A DNA stretch of 64,000 nucleotides from an uncultured Clostridia bacterium. Its GTDB lineage: Bacteria > Bacillota > Clostridia > Oscillospirales > Oscillospiraceae. This document shows, piece after piece, positions 53,349-64,000 of this stretch. A program made the position numbers and the translations under genes. The notes under the pieces were generated by a model. That model was given only the letters and a program-made list of their open reading frames with translations. It was not told the DNA's origin and made no database searches. The DNA is taken from contig CAMGRL010000006.1 of NCBI GenBank assembly GCA_946061515.1, forward strand, positions 1 to 64,000, written 5' to 3'. Positions within the stretch are counted from its first letter, which is position 1; each line of letters starts with the position of its first letter.

Positions 53349-54443
53349 TTACATTTTCGCAATCAGGGCTTCCAGCTCCGCTTTTCTGCCCGTTCTGGTC
53401 ACCAGCTGCATGCCGCCCATCTGCGCGGTGCAGTTGGCTTCCACCATGCACCAGCCCCGATCCGCCGTATAGGCCAGATCCCAGCCGCAGTAGTGGTTGC
53501 CGGGCACCATCAGGGCAGCGGTTTTGACCATCTCCAGCACTTCATCCCAGTGGGGGATCTGAAAACCCTTGAAGCGCACGCCGGTGTCCGGGTGGCATTC
53601 AAAGCGGTTTCCTTTTTTATCCGCACCGTCGGTAAAGATCACGCCGGTGTCCGGGTCGATCAGGGCGCTGATGCCGCCGGCGCTGAAATTGTCCACAATG
53701 CTGTGGTGCTGGCCCACCCGCAGAGTGGGATTGAAGAGCCGCACTTCAGGCTCCCCGTTTTCGCCCTTGATCACGGCAGTGGGCACGCGGAGGGTGTTCA
53801 CCGATTCCGGATGGATAACGGCCATTTCGGCCCCCTGCTGAATGATCTCCTCCAGCACAGCGCCCTTTTCGTGGACGGCTTCCAGGGCCTGCTCCAACGT
53901 GTCATAATTTTTGACGCTGTCAAAATGGACGCCCTTGCCGAAGGCGGCGAAGATGGGCTTTACGATATAGTCCGGATGCTTGTCCGTAAACGCCCTGAAG
54001 CGCTCCATCATCTCCTCCGTCATCTCATCTCTCTGACGGATGCAGATCATATCCCGCTTGAACATGTCCTGGAACTTCTTGTAGGTCAGATACTTGTTCT
54101 CCAGCATGTTGGTGTTTTTGGGGTCGTTCATCCGGGGATAGTAGCTCAGGCGAATACCCTCGGTGATGAAGGAGTCCCGATAGGCGTCGTCCTGTCCCTC
54201 AAAGCCGAAGTTGAAGTACTCGTCGTAGTAAGAGCCGAACTTCTGCAGGCAATGGTTCATATCCCGGCGCAGTGCGCGCATGTATTTCTTGTCCGCCATC
54301 TCCTCCGGGGTCTTGTAGCGGGCGATGATCTCGTCGATCTGTCCCTTTTTGCGGCGGCGGTAGTTATACTTGCGGTACCAGTTTTTGAAGCGGATCTTGT
54401 AGTAAATTTTTCTCCTGAGTTTACGAAACACGGGAATCCACAC
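53349..54443 (-). CDS. Sugar-transfer associated ATP-grasp protein (4 of 4)
   Basis: YIVKPIFAAFGKGVHFDSV; NFSAGGISALIDPDTGVIFTDGADKKGNRFECHPDTGVRFKGFQIPHW; YCGWDLAYTADRGWCMVEAN. Confidence 0.87.
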   Translation of the reverse strand: MWIPVFRKLRRKIYYKIRFKNWYRKYNYRRRKKGQIDEIIARYKTPEEMADKKYMRALRRDMNHCLQKFGSYYDEYFNFGFEGQDDAYRDSFITEGIRLSYYPRMNDPKNTNMLENKYLTYKKFQDMFKRDMICIRQRDEMTEEMMERFRAFTDKHPDYIVKPIFAAFGKGVHFDSVKNYDTLEQALEAVHEKGAVLEEIIQQGAEMAVIHPESVNTLRVPTAVIKGENGEPEVRLFNPTLRVGQHHSIVDNFSAGGISALIDPDTGVIFTDGADKKGNRFECHPDTGVRFKGFQIPHWDEVLEMVKTAALMVPGNHYCGWDLAYTADRGWCMVEANCTAQMGGMQLVTRTGRKAELEALIAKM

Positions 54444-54553: not shown

Positions 54554-55309
54554 TCACGGGTTGACTGTGCTGGGACGGTAGCCGCCGTCCACGCTGATCA
54601 CCGTACCGGTGACATAGGAGGCCCAGTCAGAGGCCAGGTACAGCATGGCCCGGGAGATATCCTCCGCCTCGCCCATGCGTTTGAGGGGAATGGTTTTGGC
54701 AAAGCTCTGCTTTTGCTTCTCGTTGAGCGCGGCCACCATCTCGGTATTGATGACGCCCGGGGCCACTGCGTTGACCCGGATATTCCAGGGGGCAAGCTCG
54801 AAGGCCAGGGACTTGGTCATGCCGATAATGGCCGCCTTGCTGGCGGGATAGGGGCAGCCCATGCCGGAACCGTAGATCCCGGTGACGGAGGCCGTGTTGA
54901 TGATCACGCCCTGCCGCTGCTTTTTAAAGTAAGGCGTGGCAAATTTGCAGAAGTTAAAGACGCCCTTGACGTTGATATCCATGACCCGCTCAAATTCCTC
55001 TGTGGTGGTGCGGGTAATGGGGCGGTCACTGGAGACGCCGGCGATATTCACCACCATGTCCACATGGCCGAAGCGCTTCACCGCCTGCTTGAAGACGGCC
55101 TTGACGCTCTCCGCATCCCGCACGTCGCACGGGCAGGCAAGAAATTCGGAGCCGCAGGCCTCCACATGGTCTTTCAGCTCCTCCATACGGTCGGTGCGGA
55201 TATCCACACCGGCGATCTTCGCGCCCTGCTGGGCAAAAAGCTCCGCCGTTTTGCGGCCGATACCGGAGTTGACCCCGGTGATCACAGCGACCTTATCTGT
55301 TAAAAGCAT
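54554..55309 (-). CDS. SDR-family oxidoreductase, candidate hydroxysteroid dehydrogenase (BaiA-like)
   Basis: VITGVNSGIG; MDINVKGVFNFCKFATPYFKKQRQGVIINTASVTGIYGSGMGCPYPASKAAIIGMTKSL; downstream of baiE. Confidence 0.85.
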   Translation of the reverse strand: MLLTDKVAVITGVNSGIGRKTAELFAQQGAKIAGVDIRTDRMEELKDHVEACGSEFLACPCDVRDAESVKAVFKQAVKRFGHVDMVVNIAGVSSDRPITRTTTEEFERVMDINVKGVFNFCKFATPYFKKQRQGVIINTASVTGIYGSGMGCPYPASKAAIIGMTKSLAFELAPWNIRVNAVAPGVINTEMVAALNEKQKQSFAKTIPLKRMGEAEDISRAMLYLASDWASYVTGTVISVDGGYRPSTVNP

Positions 55310-55310
55310 A

Positions 55311-55365
55311 GCAACTTTCTCCTGAAGTTGCGCCCGGACCGGGCGGGCAATGCCCGGTCCGGGCG
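55311..55365 (-). promoter_or_regulatory. Two adjacent RNA hairpins in the baiE-SDR intergenic gap
   Basis: CGCCCGGACCGGGC-gggcaat-GCCCGGTCCGGGCG (55331-55365) and GCAACTT-caggaga-AAGTTGC (55311-55331, minus strand) with the SD in the loop. Confidence 0.6.
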
Positions 55366-55377
55366 CAGATGGGACCA

Positions 55378-55911
55378 TTATTTTTTCTTAACGACTTTCT
55401 TTTTCTTGGGGGCGAACATGTTGATGCGGATGTAGTGGGTCTGATCTCTCTGGAAGGACTCCTCATAGATGCGCAGATAGCCGGTCTCCTTGATGAGCCA
55501 CTTGCCGTCCAGCTTGACATACTTGTCGGTGTAGAGAGCGCTGCCCTGGATCTGGGTTCCCTCGTAGGGGTTGCCCTTGGCAAAGATCAGGTTGTCCTGC
55601 AGATACCAGTGGCCGATGGCCTCGGTATCGCTGACGATCTCGATCTCGGGGGTGTGGCCCTGGTGCAGGGTGATCTCGGTCTGAGGCATGTTCTCCGCCA
55701 TGTAGTTGGCGACCTCTTCGGGGCCGTGGAAAGACAGCTTGCCGTCAGAGTAAGAGGTGGTAACATCGGGGTGGAAGGTGGCCTTCAGGCCTTCCCAGTC
55801 CTTGGTGTCCAGGGCGGCAAAGTATCTGCTCTTCAGCGCCTTGATCTCCTCGATGTCCTTCAGTCTCTGTACTTCCTTTTCAAGGGCTTCCAGACGTTCT
55901 TCAACAGTCAT
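55378..55911 (-). CDS. baiE: Bile acid 7-alpha-dehydratase homologue (SnoaL/NTF2-like fold)
   Basis: MTVEERLEALEKEVQRLKDIEEIKALKSRYFAALD...TSYSDGKLSFHGPEEV...HQGHTPEIEI...YTDKYVKLDGKWLIKETGYLRIYEE aligns along its length with C. scindens BaiE as recalled; Y30, D35, Y54, H83, D106 and R147 retained. Confidence 0.93.
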   Translation of the reverse strand: MTVEERLEALEKEVQRLKDIEEIKALKSRYFAALDTKDWEGLKATFHPDVTTSYSDGKLSFHGPEEVANYMAENMPQTEITLHQGHTPEIEIVSDTEAIGHWYLQDNLIFAKGNPYEGTQIQGSALYTDKYVKLDGKWLIKETGYLRIYEESFQRDQTHYIRINMFAPKKKKVVKKK

Positions 55912-55943: not shown

Positions 55944-57866
55944 TCAGATGGTCATAGCGACTGCATAGGCGTCGGCTGTGGCATCCAGACCCATGCGGAC
56001 TTCCTTGGCGTCGCCGATGACGTCATAGGCAATGCCCAGCTCCTCGCACTTGGCGGTCAGGTCTGCGGTGGGACGGGAGACGGTGCCGAAAGCGACGACC
56101 AGCGTGTCAAAGTGACGGCTCTTATCGGAGGTCTTCTTGAACTTGTCGGTGAACTTGTAGTTCAGGGTGTGGTCCTCAACGCTGGTAACCTTGGACTTGT
56201 TGCTCTTCTTGATGGTATCGCCGGGATACTCAATGTCGAGGAACATGGTACGCAGCATGCCCATGCCGTTGCCCACGCGCTTTGCATCCATCACGCGGAC
56301 GTCCTTCACGCCGTTGGCAATCAGGTACTGTGCGGTCTCGCAGCCTACGCCGCCGCCGCCCAGGATAACGACCTCGCCCTTGGGCATGACCTTGCCGGAG
56401 AGGACGTCCTCAGCGGTAACAACGTCTGCACCGTCCAGACCGGGGATCTGAGGAGCAACGTAGTGTGCGCCGGTTGCCACAACAACATGGTCGGGCTTGA
56501 CCTCGGCGATCAGCTCGGGAGTGACGGTAACGCCGGTCTTGATCTCGATGCCGCGGCGCTTGCACTCCTCAGCCTCCCAGAGGACAGCCTTGGTGAACTC
56601 TTCCTTCTTGGGTGCCTTGCCGGCCAGGACAAACTGACCGCCCACCTCGTCGCTGGCTTCGTAGACGGTGGGATTGTGGCCGCGAGCCTTCAGGAACTCT
56701 GCGCAAACCAGGCCGCCGATACCGGCGCCGATGACCATGACATTCTTGGGGGTCTCGGTCTTGGGCAGGCCCTTGTACTCCAGGCAGAGCATGGGGTTGC
56801 GGGTGCAGGTGATGTGGCTGGCTTTGGGGTCGACAACCTTGTCGTAGCAGCCCTGGGTGCAGCCGATGCAGCGGCGGATTTCGTCGTCGCGGCCTTCCTT
56901 TGCCTTGTTGCACCACTCGGGATCGACCAGCTGGCCGCGGCCCACGGCGATCATGTCGATCTTGCCCTCGCGAATCAGCTTGTCAGCAACGTCGGGGGTG
57001 TTGACACGGCCCACGCCGATGACGGGAATGCTGATGCCGGCCTTGACGGCGGCGATATTGTCCATATTGAAGCCGGGCTCCAGGTTGTAGGGGGGAACCT
57101 CGTAAACGGTAGCAAGGCTCATGGCGTTGCCGCGGGACAGGTCAGCGGCGTCTACGCCGGCCTCGGCTGCCCAGTTGATGAACTGGATGGTCTCTTCCAG
57201 AGTGGTGACCTTGGGCATCAGCTCGTCGATGGCATCAAGACGCATCAGCAGAGGCATATCCTCGGGCATATTGGCGCGCATCTCGCGGATGACTTCCAGA
57301 TTGAAGCGGCAGCGGTTCTCCAGGCTCTGGTTGCCGTACTCGTCGGTACGGTTGTTCAGGCTGGGGTTCATGAACTCGTGGGGCAGGTAAGTATGGGCAG
57401 CGTGGAACTCCAGTGCGTCAAAGCCGGCTTCCACAGCCAGTTTGGCGGAAGCGCCGTACTGCTTGATGATCTCCTGGATACGCTCGTGGGTGATGGTATC
57501 GGGAGTCTCTCTCTTGTTGGTCTTGTCAAAGAAGGCTTCGGGAACAAAGCCGCCGTGCCAGATCTGGACGCAGGCCAGACCGCCGTTGTCGTGGATAGCC
57601 TTGGTGACCTTCTTCAGCTCGTCTCTGTGGTGCTCGTTGTACAGGCCCAGGTACAGATAAGCATGGGTCTCAGGGCAGATACAGGCAGGCTCCACAATAT
57701 TCAGCGCGCAGCCGCCGGCCGCACGGACGCCGTGGTAAATTGCCAGATCCTCGGCGACATCATGCTTATTCTTGACCATCTTGGTGTTCATGCCGGGCAG
57801 AACAACGCGGTTTTTCAGCTCAAGCCCTCTCAGCTTGATGGGGGAAAACAATGCATCGTAGCTCAT
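55944..57866 (-). CDS. baiCD: BaiCD-type NADH:flavin oxidoreductase (3-oxo-delta4 bile acid reductase homologue)
   Basis: MSYDALFSPIKLRGLELKNRVVLPGMNTKMVKNKHDVAEDL; FHAAHTYLPHEFMNPSLNNRTDEYG; Fe-S motif CIGCTQGCYDKVVDPKASHITC; matches recalled C. scindens BaiCD. Confidence 0.92.
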   Translation of the reverse strand: MSYDALFSPIKLRGLELKNRVVLPGMNTKMVKNKHDVAEDLAIYHGVRAAGGCALNIVEPACICPETHAYLYLGLYNEHHRDELKKVTKAIHDNGGLACVQIWHGGFVPEAFFDKTNKRETPDTITHERIQEIIKQYGASAKLAVEAGFDALEFHAAHTYLPHEFMNPSLNNRTDEYGNQSLENRCRFNLEVIREMRANMPEDMPLLMRLDAIDELMPKVTTLEETIQFINWAAEAGVDAADLSRGNAMSLATVYEVPPYNLEPGFNMDNIAAVKAGISIPVIGVGRVNTPDVADKLIREGKIDMIAVGRGQLVDPEWCNKAKEGRDDEIRRCIGCTQGCYDKVVDPKASHITCTRNPMLCLEYKGLPKTETPKNVMVIGAGIGGLVCAEFLKARGHNPTVYEASDEVGGQFVLAGKAPKKEEFTKAVLWEAEECKRRGIEIKTGVTVTPELIAEVKPDHVVVATGAHYVAPQIPGLDGADVVTAEDVLSGKVMPKGEVVILGGGGVGCETAQYLIANGVKDVRVMDAKRVGNGMGMLRTMFLDIEYPGDTIKKSNKSKVTSVEDHTLNYKFTDKFKKTSDKSRHFDTLVVAFGTVSRPTADLTAKCEELGIAYDVIGDAKEVRMGLDATADAYAVAMTI

Positions 57867-58501: not shown

Positions 58502-60547
58502 ATGATCACTGACATGAAAAACGCCAAACTCTTCAGCCCCCTTCAGCTTGGCCGCACCACGCTGAAGAACCGCATAGCAATGGCTCCCATGAGCATGCAC
58601 TACGAGGCCACCGACGGCACCGTGCCCAAGCAGCTGGCCGACATTTTTGTCCGCCGTGCAGAGGGCGGCGTCGGCTACGTCGTTATCGACGCCGTGACCG
58701 TTGACCACAAATACTGGTACATCGGCAAGACCACCGCTCTGGACAAGGACAGCCTGGTTCCCCAGTTCGCCGCTTTCGCCAAGAGAGTCAGCGACGCGGG
58801 CAGCACTCTGTTCCCCCAGATCATTCACCCCGGTCCCGAGTCCATCTGTGCGCTCAAGGGCATCAAGCCCCTGGGCCCCTCCGTTAACACCAACGCCAAC
58901 GGCCATGTCTGCAGAGAGATCACCATTGACGAGATCCACAAGGTAGTCAAGCAGTACGGCCAGGCCGCCCGCCGTGCCGAAGAGGCCGGCTGCGGCGGTA
59001 TCGCCCTGCACACCGCCCACGCTTACATGCTGCCCGGCGCTTTCCTGTCCCCCCTGCGCAACAAGCGCATGGACGAGTACGGCGGCTGCATCGACAACCG
59101 CGCCCGCTTCATCCTCGAGGTCATCGAGGAGGTCCGCAGAAACGTCAGCCGCGACTTCCCCATCGTTCTGCGTGTCTCCGGCGACGAGCGCATTGCCGGC
59201 GGCAACTCTCTGGAAGAGATGCTGTACCTGGCGCCCAAGTTTGAGGCAGCCGGCGTGGATATGCTGGAGGTTTCCGGCGGCGTTCAGTACGAAGGTCTCC
59301 AGAACATTCTGCCCGCCCACAGCCAGAAGATCGGCAAGAACGTCTACGAAGCCTCCGAGATCAAGAAGGTTGTCAATATCCCCGTTTTCGTGGTTGGCAA
59401 GATCAACGACATCCGCTACGCTGCCGACATCGTGGAGCGCGGTCTGGTTGACGGCGTGACTCTGGGCCGTCCCCTGCTGGCCGATCCCGACCTGCCCAAG
59501 AAGGCCTACGAGAACCGCTTTGACGACATCACTCCCTGCGGTTCCTGCGCCGGCCGCTGCATCACCCCCGAGAATCCCATGCACCCTGTCTGCAAGTGCC
59601 ACATCAACCCCCTGGTTGGCTGCGAGTATGACTTCCCCTTCAATCCCACCGACAAGCCCAAGAAGCTGCTGGTCATCGGCGCCGGCCCCGGCGGTATGTA
59701 CACCGCTGTCACCGCTGCCGAGCGCGGCCACGACGTGACCGTTTGGGAAAAGAGCAACCGCATCGGCGGTCAGCTGAACCTGGCTGTTGTCTCTCCCGGC
59801 AAGCAGGAGATGACCAAGTGGCTCGTCCACCTGAACTACCGCGCCAAGAATGCCGGCGTCAAGTTCGAGTTCAAGAAGGAAGCCACCGTTGACCTGGTCA
59901 AGGAGTTCGCTCCCGACGCCGTTGTTGTGGCCACCGGCGCAAAGCCCTTCATTCCCACCTTTATCAAGGGCGTCGATCCTGCCAAGGCCATCACCACCCA
60001 CGACATTCTCAGCCGCAAGGTCACCATTCCCAACGGCCGTGTCTGCATCCTGGGCGGCGGCGAGGTCGCCTGCGAGACCGCCGAGATGATCTTCAACGAT
60101 GCCCGTCCCCACTCCATCTACACCCCCAACTTCAGAAACGGCGATGTGGACATCACCCTGGTTGAGATGATGCCTCAGATGATGACCGGCGTCTGCCAGC
60201 CCAACCGCAGTGTTGCCATGGAGGCGCTGCGTCACCACGGCGCAAAGATGTTCGTCAACTCCAAGGTTATGGAGCTTAACGAGTACACCATCCAGGTGAA
60301 CGCCGGCGGCAAGGTGCACGACGTTGTCAAGCACGACGTCAAGATCCAGCATCTTGAGGACGGCAGCGAAGAGTGGCTCAAGTGCTTCGACTACGTCATT
60401 CTGGGTCTGGGCTCCAGAAAGTACGATCCTCTGTCCGAGGAGCTGAAGGCCTTCGTGCCCGAGGTGTATGTGATCGGCGACGCCGTTAAGCCCGGCCAGT
60501 CCAGCGATGCCATGCATCAGGGCTTCCATGTGGCTTACGACCTGTAA
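58502..60547 (+). CDS. baiH: BaiH-type NADH:flavin oxidoreductase
   Basis: KLFSPLQLGRTTLKNRIAMAPMSMHYEATDGTVPKQLADIFVRRAEGGVGYVVIDAVTVD; PQIIHPGPESIC; HAYMLPGAFLSPLRNKRMDEYGG; C-x2-C-x3-C Fe-S motif; matches recalled C. scindens BaiH. Confidence 0.93.
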   Translation: MITDMKNAKLFSPLQLGRTTLKNRIAMAPMSMHYEATDGTVPKQLADIFVRRAEGGVGYVVIDAVTVDHKYWYIGKTTALDKDSLVPQFAAFAKRVSDAGSTLFPQIIHPGPESICALKGIKPLGPSVNTNANGHVCREITIDEIHKVVKQYGQAARRAEEAGCGGIALHTAHAYMLPGAFLSPLRNKRMDEYGGCIDNRARFILEVIEEVRRNVSRDFPIVLRVSGDERIAGGNSLEEMLYLAPKFEAAGVDMLEVSGGVQYEGLQNILPAHSQKIGKNVYEASEIKKVVNIPVFVVGKINDIRYAADIVERGLVDGVTLGRPLLADPDLPKKAYENRFDDITPCGSCAGRCITPENPMHPVCKCHINPLVGCEYDFPFNPTDKPKKLLVIGAGPGGMYTAVTAAERGHDVTVWEKSNRIGGQLNLAVVSPGKQEMTKWLVHLNYRAKNAGVKFEFKKEATVDLVKEFAPDAVVVATGAKPFIPTFIKGVDPAKAITTHDILSRKVTIPNGRVCILGGGEVACETAEMIFNDARPHSIYTPNFRNGDVDITLVEMMPQMMTGVCQPNRSVAMEALRHHGAKMFVNSKVMELNEYTIQVNAGGKVHDVVKHDVKIQHLEDGSEEWLKCFDYVILGLGSRKYDPLSEELKAFVPEVYVIGDAVKPGQSSDAMHQGFHVAYDL

Positions 60548-60944: not shown

Positions 60945-62186
60945 ATGAAAAAAAAGAGCAGGCCCTTGTGCGAAAAGCCCAGAAGCGGCGTTTTCTGCGG
61001 TCCGGACAAGTACCTGGCGCTCCAGGAATACACCATCACCGAGGAGATGTACCCGGTAATGGAGCTGGACAGCTATTTTGTCTTTGTCCGCAGCGGCAAA
61101 GGGATTTTTATCATCAACGGCGAGGAGTTTCATGTGGAGCCCGGCTGCATGGCCTGGATCCAGGCCACCCAGGTGCTCACCATCTGCCCGGACTTCGGCG
61201 ATCCGATGTGTCTCTGGGTATGCGCCTACGATTATCAGCTCCTCAGCTACTATCTCTTCCGCCAGATCAGCGCCACCAACGAGACGGAGATCGTCAACGG
61301 CATCCCGGTCATCGGCCCGGAGGGGCAGGAGCTGCGGGATATCGAGCGGCTTTTCTGCCAGTTCCGGGAGCTCTGCAAAAAAGGCAGCCGGGGCTCCGCG
61401 GTGATCCGAAGCTCCTATCTGCGGAAAATTGAGATCCTGTACAACCGGGTGGCGGGCAGAATGCGGGACCAGTACAAGACCAGCGACATGCCCCTTGGCC
61501 GCCGGGCCAGCCTGTATATCGCCGCCCACAGCGCGGAAAACCTGAGCTCCGAAAAGGTGGCCAAGGCCGTAGGCGCCAGTGAGTCGGCCATGAACCACGC
61601 CCTGCTGGTGGTGACGGGGATGAATTTCAACCAATATCTCAGCCGTCTGCGGCTGGTGCTGGCCACCACCTATTTTCTCTATGACAGCCTCCCCTTTGAC
61701 TATATCGCCTCCATCTCCGGCTTCAATATGGATATCACCTTCTTCCGCCGCTTCAAGAGCTTAACCGGCATGACGCCCCAGAGCTACCGGGAGCAGATGC
61801 TCTGCGACGGCAAGGACGGCAGCATCTACCGGGGTATGATCATGAGCGAGACACTGATCTCCGCCATCAGCTATCTCTATGAAAATCTGACGGAGTATAT
61901 CGACGTGGAGACGCTGGCCAAAGCCCTTTATACTTCAGGCAGCATCCTGCGCAGCCAGTTTAAATCCCGCCTGAACACCAGCTACAAGCAGGTGCTGTCC
62001 CAGTTCCGGGTACGCTACGCGGAAGCCCTGCTGACCACCACGGATCTGCCCACGGTGGATATCGCCATCGAGTCCGGCTTCGGCTCGGACAGGACCATGG
62101 GCAGAGTGTTTTACAGCATCAACGGCATGACTCCCTGCGAGTTCAGGAAGCTGCGCACCGGCAGGAGAAGCAGAAATGGTAAATAA
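60945..62186 (+). CDS. AraC-family regulator with N-terminal cupin-like sensor and two AraC HTH modules
   Basis: FNMDITFFRRFKSLTGMTPQSYREQM and FGSDRTMGRVFYSINGMTPCEFRKLRTG both match AraC C-terminal HTH patterns. Confidence 0.85.
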   Translation: MKKKSRPLCEKPRSGVFCGPDKYLALQEYTITEEMYPVMELDSYFVFVRSGKGIFIINGEEFHVEPGCMAWIQATQVLTICPDFGDPMCLWVCAYDYQLLSYYLFRQISATNETEIVNGIPVIGPEGQELRDIERLFCQFRELCKKGSRGSAVIRSSYLRKIEILYNRVAGRMRDQYKTSDMPLGRRASLYIAAHSAENLSSEKVAKAVGASESAMNHALLVVTGMNFNQYLSRLRLVLATTYFLYDSLPFDYIASISGFNMDITFFRRFKSLTGMTPQSYREQMLCDGKDGSIYRGMIMSETLISAISYLYENLTEYIDVETLAKALYTSGSILRSQFKSRLNTSYKQVLSQFRVRYAEALLTTTDLPTVDIAIESGFGSDRTMGRVFYSINGMTPCEFRKLRTGRRSRNGK

Positions 62187-62772
62187 AAACGTATTTGAAA
62201 AGGAACAGGGCACGCCGGAAAAGGTCCCTGGCAAACCGATTTTTTTCGGTTCCCATGACTATTTTGTGGAAAACGTGCTGCCGGACAACATTCAGGCCCG
62301 GCTGCGCCGGATCAGCGCCCCCACCCCCTATGTGAATAACCGGGACGAGGTGTTTCTCCTGGTGCGTTCCGGCACCGGCACCATGACGGTGAACGGGCTG
62401 GAGTACCGGCTCAAGCCCAACACCCTCATCAACCTGGGTCCCTTCCACCGTTACCGCTTCATCCCCGACAAGGGCACGGCCCTGGAGATCGCCGACAGCC
62501 GCATGAACAGTGGCACCTATGTCTACATGATCGCCAACCCCTACCTGAAGCGCAAGCAGTTTTTCGTCACCTCCGAGCCGCCGGTGGTGCATCTGACCGG
62601 TCTGCTGGCCGAGGTGGCCAACGACGCCATGACCGGCCTGCTGGCCGAAATGGAGAACAAATCTGAGGACAGAATGCAGCTCTGCTTCTGCTATATGATG
62701 GACCTGTTCGGCATCATTACCGACATGATGCCCAAGAGCTATTTCCGCAAAACCGATGCCGGAAACGACTGA
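62176..62772 (+). CDS. Stand-alone AraC-type cupin sensor domain without HTH
   Basis: RDEVFLLVRSGTGTMTVNGLEYRLKPNTLINLGPFHRYRFIPDKG; 11-nt overlap with the upstream regulator; no C-terminal HTH. Confidence 0.7.
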   Translation: MVNKNVFEKEQGTPEKVPGKPIFFGSHDYFVENVLPDNIQARLRRISAPTPYVNNRDEVFLLVRSGTGTMTVNGLEYRLKPNTLINLGPFHRYRFIPDKGTALEIADSRMNSGTYVYMIANPYLKRKQFFVTSEPPVVHLTGLLAEVANDAMTGLLAEMENKSEDRMQLCFCYMMDLFGIITDMMPKSYFRKTDAGND

Positions 62773-63222: not shown

Positions 63223-63990
63223 ATGTTTGAAAACGAATTCAAAGGCAAAGTAGTAGTCATCAGCGGCGGCAGCCGTGGTATCGGCTTTGCAGCCGTCAAG
63301 GGCTTTCTGGCCAACGGCGCAAAGGTCTGCTTCCTCAGCCACTATGAGGAGACCGGCGCAAAGGCTCTGGCCGCGCTGAAGGAGATCAACCCCGACTACG
63401 AAGTCATGACCAAGGCCATCGACCTGTGCGATTTCAAGGCAGCTCAGGATCTGTACAAGGAAGTCATTGCCAAGTGGGGCCGCATCGACGTGCTCATCAA
63501 CAACGCTGGTACCGACTGCCCCACCTGGCTCACCAAGCTGAAACAGTCCGAGTGGGACGCCGTCTGCAACCTGAACCAGAAGGCTGTCTTCAACATGAGC
63601 AAGTACGCCATTGATTACCTGAAGAAGACCAAGGGCTGCATCATCAACACCGCCTCCGTCGCCGGCGTTTACGGCTCCCCCACCGGTCTGCCCTACCCCG
63701 CCTCCAAGGCCGCTGTTATCGCCATGACCAAGTCCATGGCTTACTCCTTCGCTCCCAACGGCGTTCGCGTCAACTGCATCGCTCCGGGCGTTGTTGAGAC
63801 CGACATGACCGCCGGCATGCCCGACTTCGCCAAGAAGTCCGTCGGCGACACCATCCCCATGAAGCGCTTCGGCCAGCCCGAGGATATTGCCAACGCCATG
63901 ATGTTCCTGGCCTCCAGCGCAGCATCCTACGTCACCGGCGCCTGCCTGCAGGTAGACGGCGGCTACCGTCCCAGCAACCTGCTCAACTGA
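63223..63990 (+). CDS. BaiA-like SDR (candidate 3-alpha-hydroxysteroid dehydrogenase)
   Basis: VVVISGGSRGIGFAAVKGFLANGAKV; INTASVAGVYGSPTGLPYPASKAAVIAMTKS; GVVETDMTAGMPDFAKKSVGDTIPMKRFGQPEDIANAMMFLASS; resembles recalled BaiA2. Confidence 0.85.
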   Translation: MFENEFKGKVVVISGGSRGIGFAAVKGFLANGAKVCFLSHYEETGAKALAALKEINPDYEVMTKAIDLCDFKAAQDLYKEVIAKWGRIDVLINNAGTDCPTWLTKLKQSEWDAVCNLNQKAVFNMSKYAIDYLKKTKGCIINTASVAGVYGSPTGLPYPASKAAVIAMTKSMAYSFAPNGVRVNCIAPGVVETDMTAGMPDFAKKSVGDTIPMKRFGQPEDIANAMMFLASSAASYVTGACLQVDGGYRPSNLLN

Positions 63991-64000
63991 GCATAAGGCA

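Follow-up and report, generated by a model that had tools for sequence, protein, structure and literature searches.

RESULTS

bai genes near the end of the window

The stretch of DNA that we analyzed, called the window below, comprises 64,000 nucleotides from an uncultured gut bacterium of the Oscillospiraceae and carries a homologue of the bile acid 7α-dehydratase gene baiE within a nearly complete bai gene cluster. The window stops at position 64000 and its contig extends to 67237, so that the last two features listed here lie past the window's end.

54554 to 55309, minus strand: second SDR gene, 251 aa, downstream of baiE and travelling with the operon
55378 to 55911, minus strand: baiE, bile acid 7α-dehydratase homologue, 177 aa, NTF2/SnoaL_4 fold, with Y30, D35, Y54, H83, D106 and R147
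55944 to 57866, minus strand: baiCD-like NADH:flavin oxidoreductase gene, upstream of baiE across a 32-bp gap, with OYE and Pyr_redox_2 domains
58502 to 60547, plus strand: baiH-like NADH:flavin oxidoreductase gene, divergent from baiCD, 418 bits to NF041087, in the cluster-1 baiH position
60945 to 62186, plus strand: gene for an AraC-family regulator (HTH_18) in the barA position
62176 to 62772, plus strand: gene for a 198-aa protein in the barB position
63223 to 63990, plus strand: baiA, SDR of 255 aa, best PDB match 4is2, a bile acid 3α-hydroxysteroid dehydrogenase (E = 5e-57)
contig 64086 to 65609: BaiB, 863.5 bits against a curated cut-off of 650
contig 65712 to 67073: CoA-transferase III in the baiF position (BaiF-type)

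The gene for BaiE thus stands in one bai operon with genes for BaiB, BaiA, BaiCD and BaiF-type partners, and the intact operon is kept in relatives. The baiCD-like protein scored 795 bits against the NF041087 BaiCD model, slightly below the equivalog cut-off of 825, and an orthologue is present in every BaiE relative examined. The baiH-like protein, whose start codon was picked by eye, is 82 to 99% identical across relatives in the genus and its sister genus. The order at the two regulatory positions is that of Table 1 of PMC9426597, and a family search with the barB-position protein gave no match.

The baiE homologue is an intact gene

The baiE reading frame runs uninterrupted through 177 codons and a stop on the minus strand, beginning with an ATG at 55911 that is preceded, 8 bases 5′, by an AGAGG ribosome-binding site. 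A plus-strand open reading frame across the same positions was rejected as a shadow of this gene. When all PDB sequences were searched, which also served as our source of reference BaiE sequences, the best three matches were BaiE crystal sequences (4l8o, 9e-64; 4l8p, 3e-61; 4leh, 1e-59), and after the BaiE entries the best remaining match reached only E = 6e-06. The initial annotation, which had placed a BaiE homologue here, therefore describes a real gene. Its product is homologous over its full length to characterized BaiE, is nearer to BaiE than to other SnoaL proteins, and matches the Pfam family SnoaL_4 with 97 bits. Compared with six orthologues, baiE has a dN/dS of 0.05 to 0.27, which points to strong purifying selection; because the similarity in addition spans residues 1 to 167, a chance resemblance to BaiE is excluded.

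An AlphaFold2 model of the protein (mean pLDDT of 86, pTM of 0.79) first matched the structures 4leh, 4l8o, 4n3v and 4l8p, with E values of 2e-20 to 2e-19 and TM scores of about 0.8, followed by LinA at 2e-10. The predicted fold is accordingly NTF2-like and closest to the BaiE crystals. In a phylogenetic tree, a branch with support 85/97 separates the BaiE sequences from other SnoaL proteins. The same branch appeared in a tree with more rows (66/96), and the deeper branching order within BaiE is weakly supported.

The clostridial enzymes and the window protein are alike in fold, core length, six active-site positions and operon partners. They differ in that the window protein is 57 to 58% identical to the crystallized BaiE of C. 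scindens, C. hylemonae and C. hiranonis, carries R147 for R146 (as does C. hylemonae BaiE), ends in a lysine-rich C-terminal tail, and has A33 and T36 flanking D35 where C. scindens has C33 and G36. Since these residues beside D35 differ, substrate preference could differ as well. More distant relatives from Halieaceae and Mycobacterium are 36 to 42% identical to the window protein and retain D106, R146 and the triad; those from Mycobacterium have all six residues. No recognizable bai operon was seen in the two flanks listed for these homologues (L010 and L011), and the 20 kb around the mycobacterial homologue L011, judged from the list of open reading frames, held no evident one. LinA dehydrochlorinase, scytalone dehydratase and LdpA share the superfamily and the NTF2-like barrel at about 20 to 24% identity and act on other substrates.

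Active-site residues are in register and only partly diagnostic

The 2016 BaiE structure paper by Bhowmik reportedly assigns roles to a Y30, D35 and H83 triad as well as to Y54 and R146. In a MAFFT alignment with the three PDB sequences of BaiE, Y30, D35, Y54, H83 and D106 of the window protein carried the same numbers as in C. scindens BaiE, and R146 of the latter corresponded to R147, shifted by one extra residue close to position 114, which is likewise present in C. hylemonae BaiE. The numbering and the single inserted residue claimed from the sequence at the outset were therefore right, and no catalytic residue was out of register with the solved BaiE sequences.

These residues had further been taken to argue for a 7-dehydratase and against a generic SnoaL-like protein. 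That conclusion stands mainly on clade, operon and BaiB, whereas the argument itself has limited diagnostic value. We compared 15 SnoaL_4 proteins of the genus that are not BaiE, including three encoded in the window's own genome. Of these, 12 have equivalents of Y30, D35 and H83; Y54 is present in 6/15, D106 in 5/15, R146 in none, and the complete set likewise in none. All six residues occur in each of the 16 BaiE sequences compared, and also in three mycobacterial homologues with 36 to 38% identity. Because of this occurrence in generic SnoaL_4 proteins and mycobacterial homologues, the triad is a superfamily feature and the six-residue set a necessary mark of BaiE that does not suffice for its recognition; Y54 together with R146 is more telling than the triad.

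The operon resembles cluster 1 and lacks baiG

Cluster 1 is the bai operon of uncultured Oscillospiraceae MAGs (UBA11811 and CAG:103) in PMC9426597, whose Table 1 gives its order as baiE-baiCD divergent from baiH-barA-barB-baiA-baiB-baiG-baiF-baiF. The window agrees with it in having a 177-aa BaiE and baiCD on one strand and baiH, barA, barB, a 255-aa baiA, baiB and baiF on the other, with baiA matching cluster-1 BaiA in both slot and length. The agreement reaches as far as baiB, after which the slot is without baiG; unlike the tabulated cluster 1, the window's operon also has an extra SDR gene after baiE. Judged from the relative G012, where unrelated genes follow the first baiF, the second baiF of the tabulated cluster is probably lacking as well; the window's own contig stops 164 bases past its first baiF. 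In the sister genus, G638 and G692 have the gene order of Table 1 of PMC9426597, including baiG and two baiF genes, and a BaiE 74 to 75% identical to that of the window, and they probably represent the published CAG:103-type lineage. Clusters of this type are thus already described, and the new details are the absence of baiG from the operon of this subclade and the second SDR gene after baiE. The part of the ruminant and rumen bile-acid literature available to us does not describe the operon.

In the window's genome, the slot between baiB and baiF spans contig positions 65610 to 65711 (L018:3610-3711), and the gap is about 0.1 to 0.15 kb here, in G012 and in L002/L075. Since the genome is 81% complete, absent genes such as a transporter or a bile salt hydrolase are not judgeable from it alone. 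The baiG gene was found nowhere in this genome (G000), in G012 (99% complete) or in G486 by a search that was positive in three other genomes. The gene lies between baiB and baiF in G018, G043, G881, G008 and the sister genus, and in G029 and G784 an MFS protein other than BaiG adjoins baiB. The one in G029 resembles the "conjugated bile salt MFS" model with a score below the cut-off; such a protein was considered as a replacement for BaiG in the window's genome, and the search there found none. A sodium:solute symporter gene (PF00474; 50475 to 52070, minus strand) lies near the operon and could be a candidate bile-acid importer; a PF00474 symporter gene adjoins the operon also in G018, a genome with baiG. 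Bile salt hydrolase (PF02275) gave no match in G000 or in G008, G012, G018, G029 and G043 (90 to 99% complete), with positive controls; in contrast, PMC9426597 records the gene in 41/41 cluster-1 MAGs.

A second SDR gene and other neighbors

The second SDR shares 41.6% identity with the BaiA of the window and is possibly another hydroxysteroid dehydrogenase. Its gene lies 3′ of baiE here, and its orthologue adjoins baiH in G018, G008, G784 and G881 (loci in relatives include L034:5871-6641, L071:13993-14784 and L073:4775-5563); in G029, a gene for a BaiA-like paralogue follows baiH in its place. Between baiE and the second SDR gene, a GC-rich hairpin with a 16-bp stem occupies 55330 to 55366 (-41 kcal/mol, z of -5.6) and lacks a U-run. 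A gene labelled ATP-grasp-like (53349 to 54443, minus strand) lies by the baiE end and stays beside the operon in both genera with 64 to 94% identity; the chromosomal site therefore looks conserved. Elsewhere in the same genome, contig C79 (L055) carries a tandem SnoaL_4 pair (1347 to 1865 and about 2042 to 2557) whose members share 58% and 70% identity with the SnoaL_4 protein encoded between baiB and baiG in G008 (L056:9309-9833), and by analogy of position the pair may be BaiI-like.

BaiE is patchily distributed

A close BaiE was found in 10/102 genomes of the window's genus, and all of those checked share the catalytic set; the family sample had one in 7/401 genomes. In a class-wide sample, the window's own genome was the sole carrier, and none of the 391 other genomes had a BaiE at E 1e-30. 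The distribution of BaiE is thus patchy.

DISCUSSION

What makes the identity of the gene convincing is similarity to BaiE over the full length, placement among the BaiE sequences, purifying selection, and an operon that includes BaiB and a BaiF-type CoA-transferase. We put the probability at about 0.92 that its product is a genuine BaiE, with the predicted activity of a bile acid 7α-dehydratase in the 7α-dehydroxylation pathway. Its substrate and pathway flux we infer, as we do its catalysis, the latter from homology, active-site residues and operon context. In the proposed pathway, a bile acid would enter the cell through a transporter, BaiB would attach CoA, BaiA would oxidize the 3-hydroxyl to a ketone, and BaiCD (or BaiH) would add the C4-C5 double bond, after which BaiE would remove water across C6-C7. 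The D35/H83 pair of BaiE takes the 6α proton from the 3-oxo-Δ4 intermediate and the 7-hydroxyl departs as water (PMC11045871). In the window protein, the same pair would abstract this proton while the 3-oxo-Δ4 system stabilizes the negative charge, and the 7α-hydroxyl would depart as water to leave a 3-oxo-Δ4,6 intermediate, which later reductases would turn into deoxycholic or lithocholic acid.

The main competing explanation is a dehydratase of the BaiE fold whose principal substrate is not a cholyl or chenodeoxycholyl intermediate but a different steroid or form of bile acid, such as a 7β-hydroxy, 6-hydroxylated or A-ring variant characteristic of the animal host. Residues near D35 unlike those of clostridial BaiE and an operon without baiG and with a second SDR gene would fit such an enzyme, yet the six catalytic and binding positions are all conserved and BaiB scores far above its curated cut-off. 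Moreover, in cluster 1, an operon of the same type, BaiA and BaiB are active on cholate, which they converted to 3-oxo-cholyl-CoA (PMC9426597, in its available part, which reports no enzyme assay of cluster-1 BaiE). We therefore regard this explanation as improbable. A generic SnoaL-like protein with an unrelated function and a likeness to BaiE in fold only could draw on how common the Y/D/H triad is among SnoaL_4 proteins of the genus; it is barely conceivable in view of 57% full-length identity, the grouping with BaiE, an R146 equivalent that no generic paralogue shares, and the operon context. Equally hard to credit is a decayed or non-expressed copy of baiE, against which stand the intact frame with its ribosome-binding site, the strong purifying selection and the intact operon kept in relatives.

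The subclade might run a modified 7α-dehydroxylation pathway in which the BaiG importer was lost or exchanged and the extra SDR, encoded next to baiE, serves as an additional hydroxysteroid dehydrogenase and determines the product, such as an oxo- or iso-bile acid. We consider this doubtful; if true, the pathway may end in something other than plain deoxycholic or lithocholic acid.

The initial annotation called BaiE the committed step, which is loose wording: PMC11045871 has BaiE catalyzing the rate-limiting step, here that toward secondary bile acids, and BaiB as the likely commitment enzyme. For annotation, the Tyr/Asp/His triad should not by itself serve to recognize BaiE. The transporter slot and SDR complement of the bai operon vary between species. 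In the published survey, cluster 1 accounts for about 85% of the baiE genes in the human gut and for about 96% of their transcripts (PMC9426597), so that most are assigned to uncultured Oscillospiraceae, and the window adds another genus of that family.
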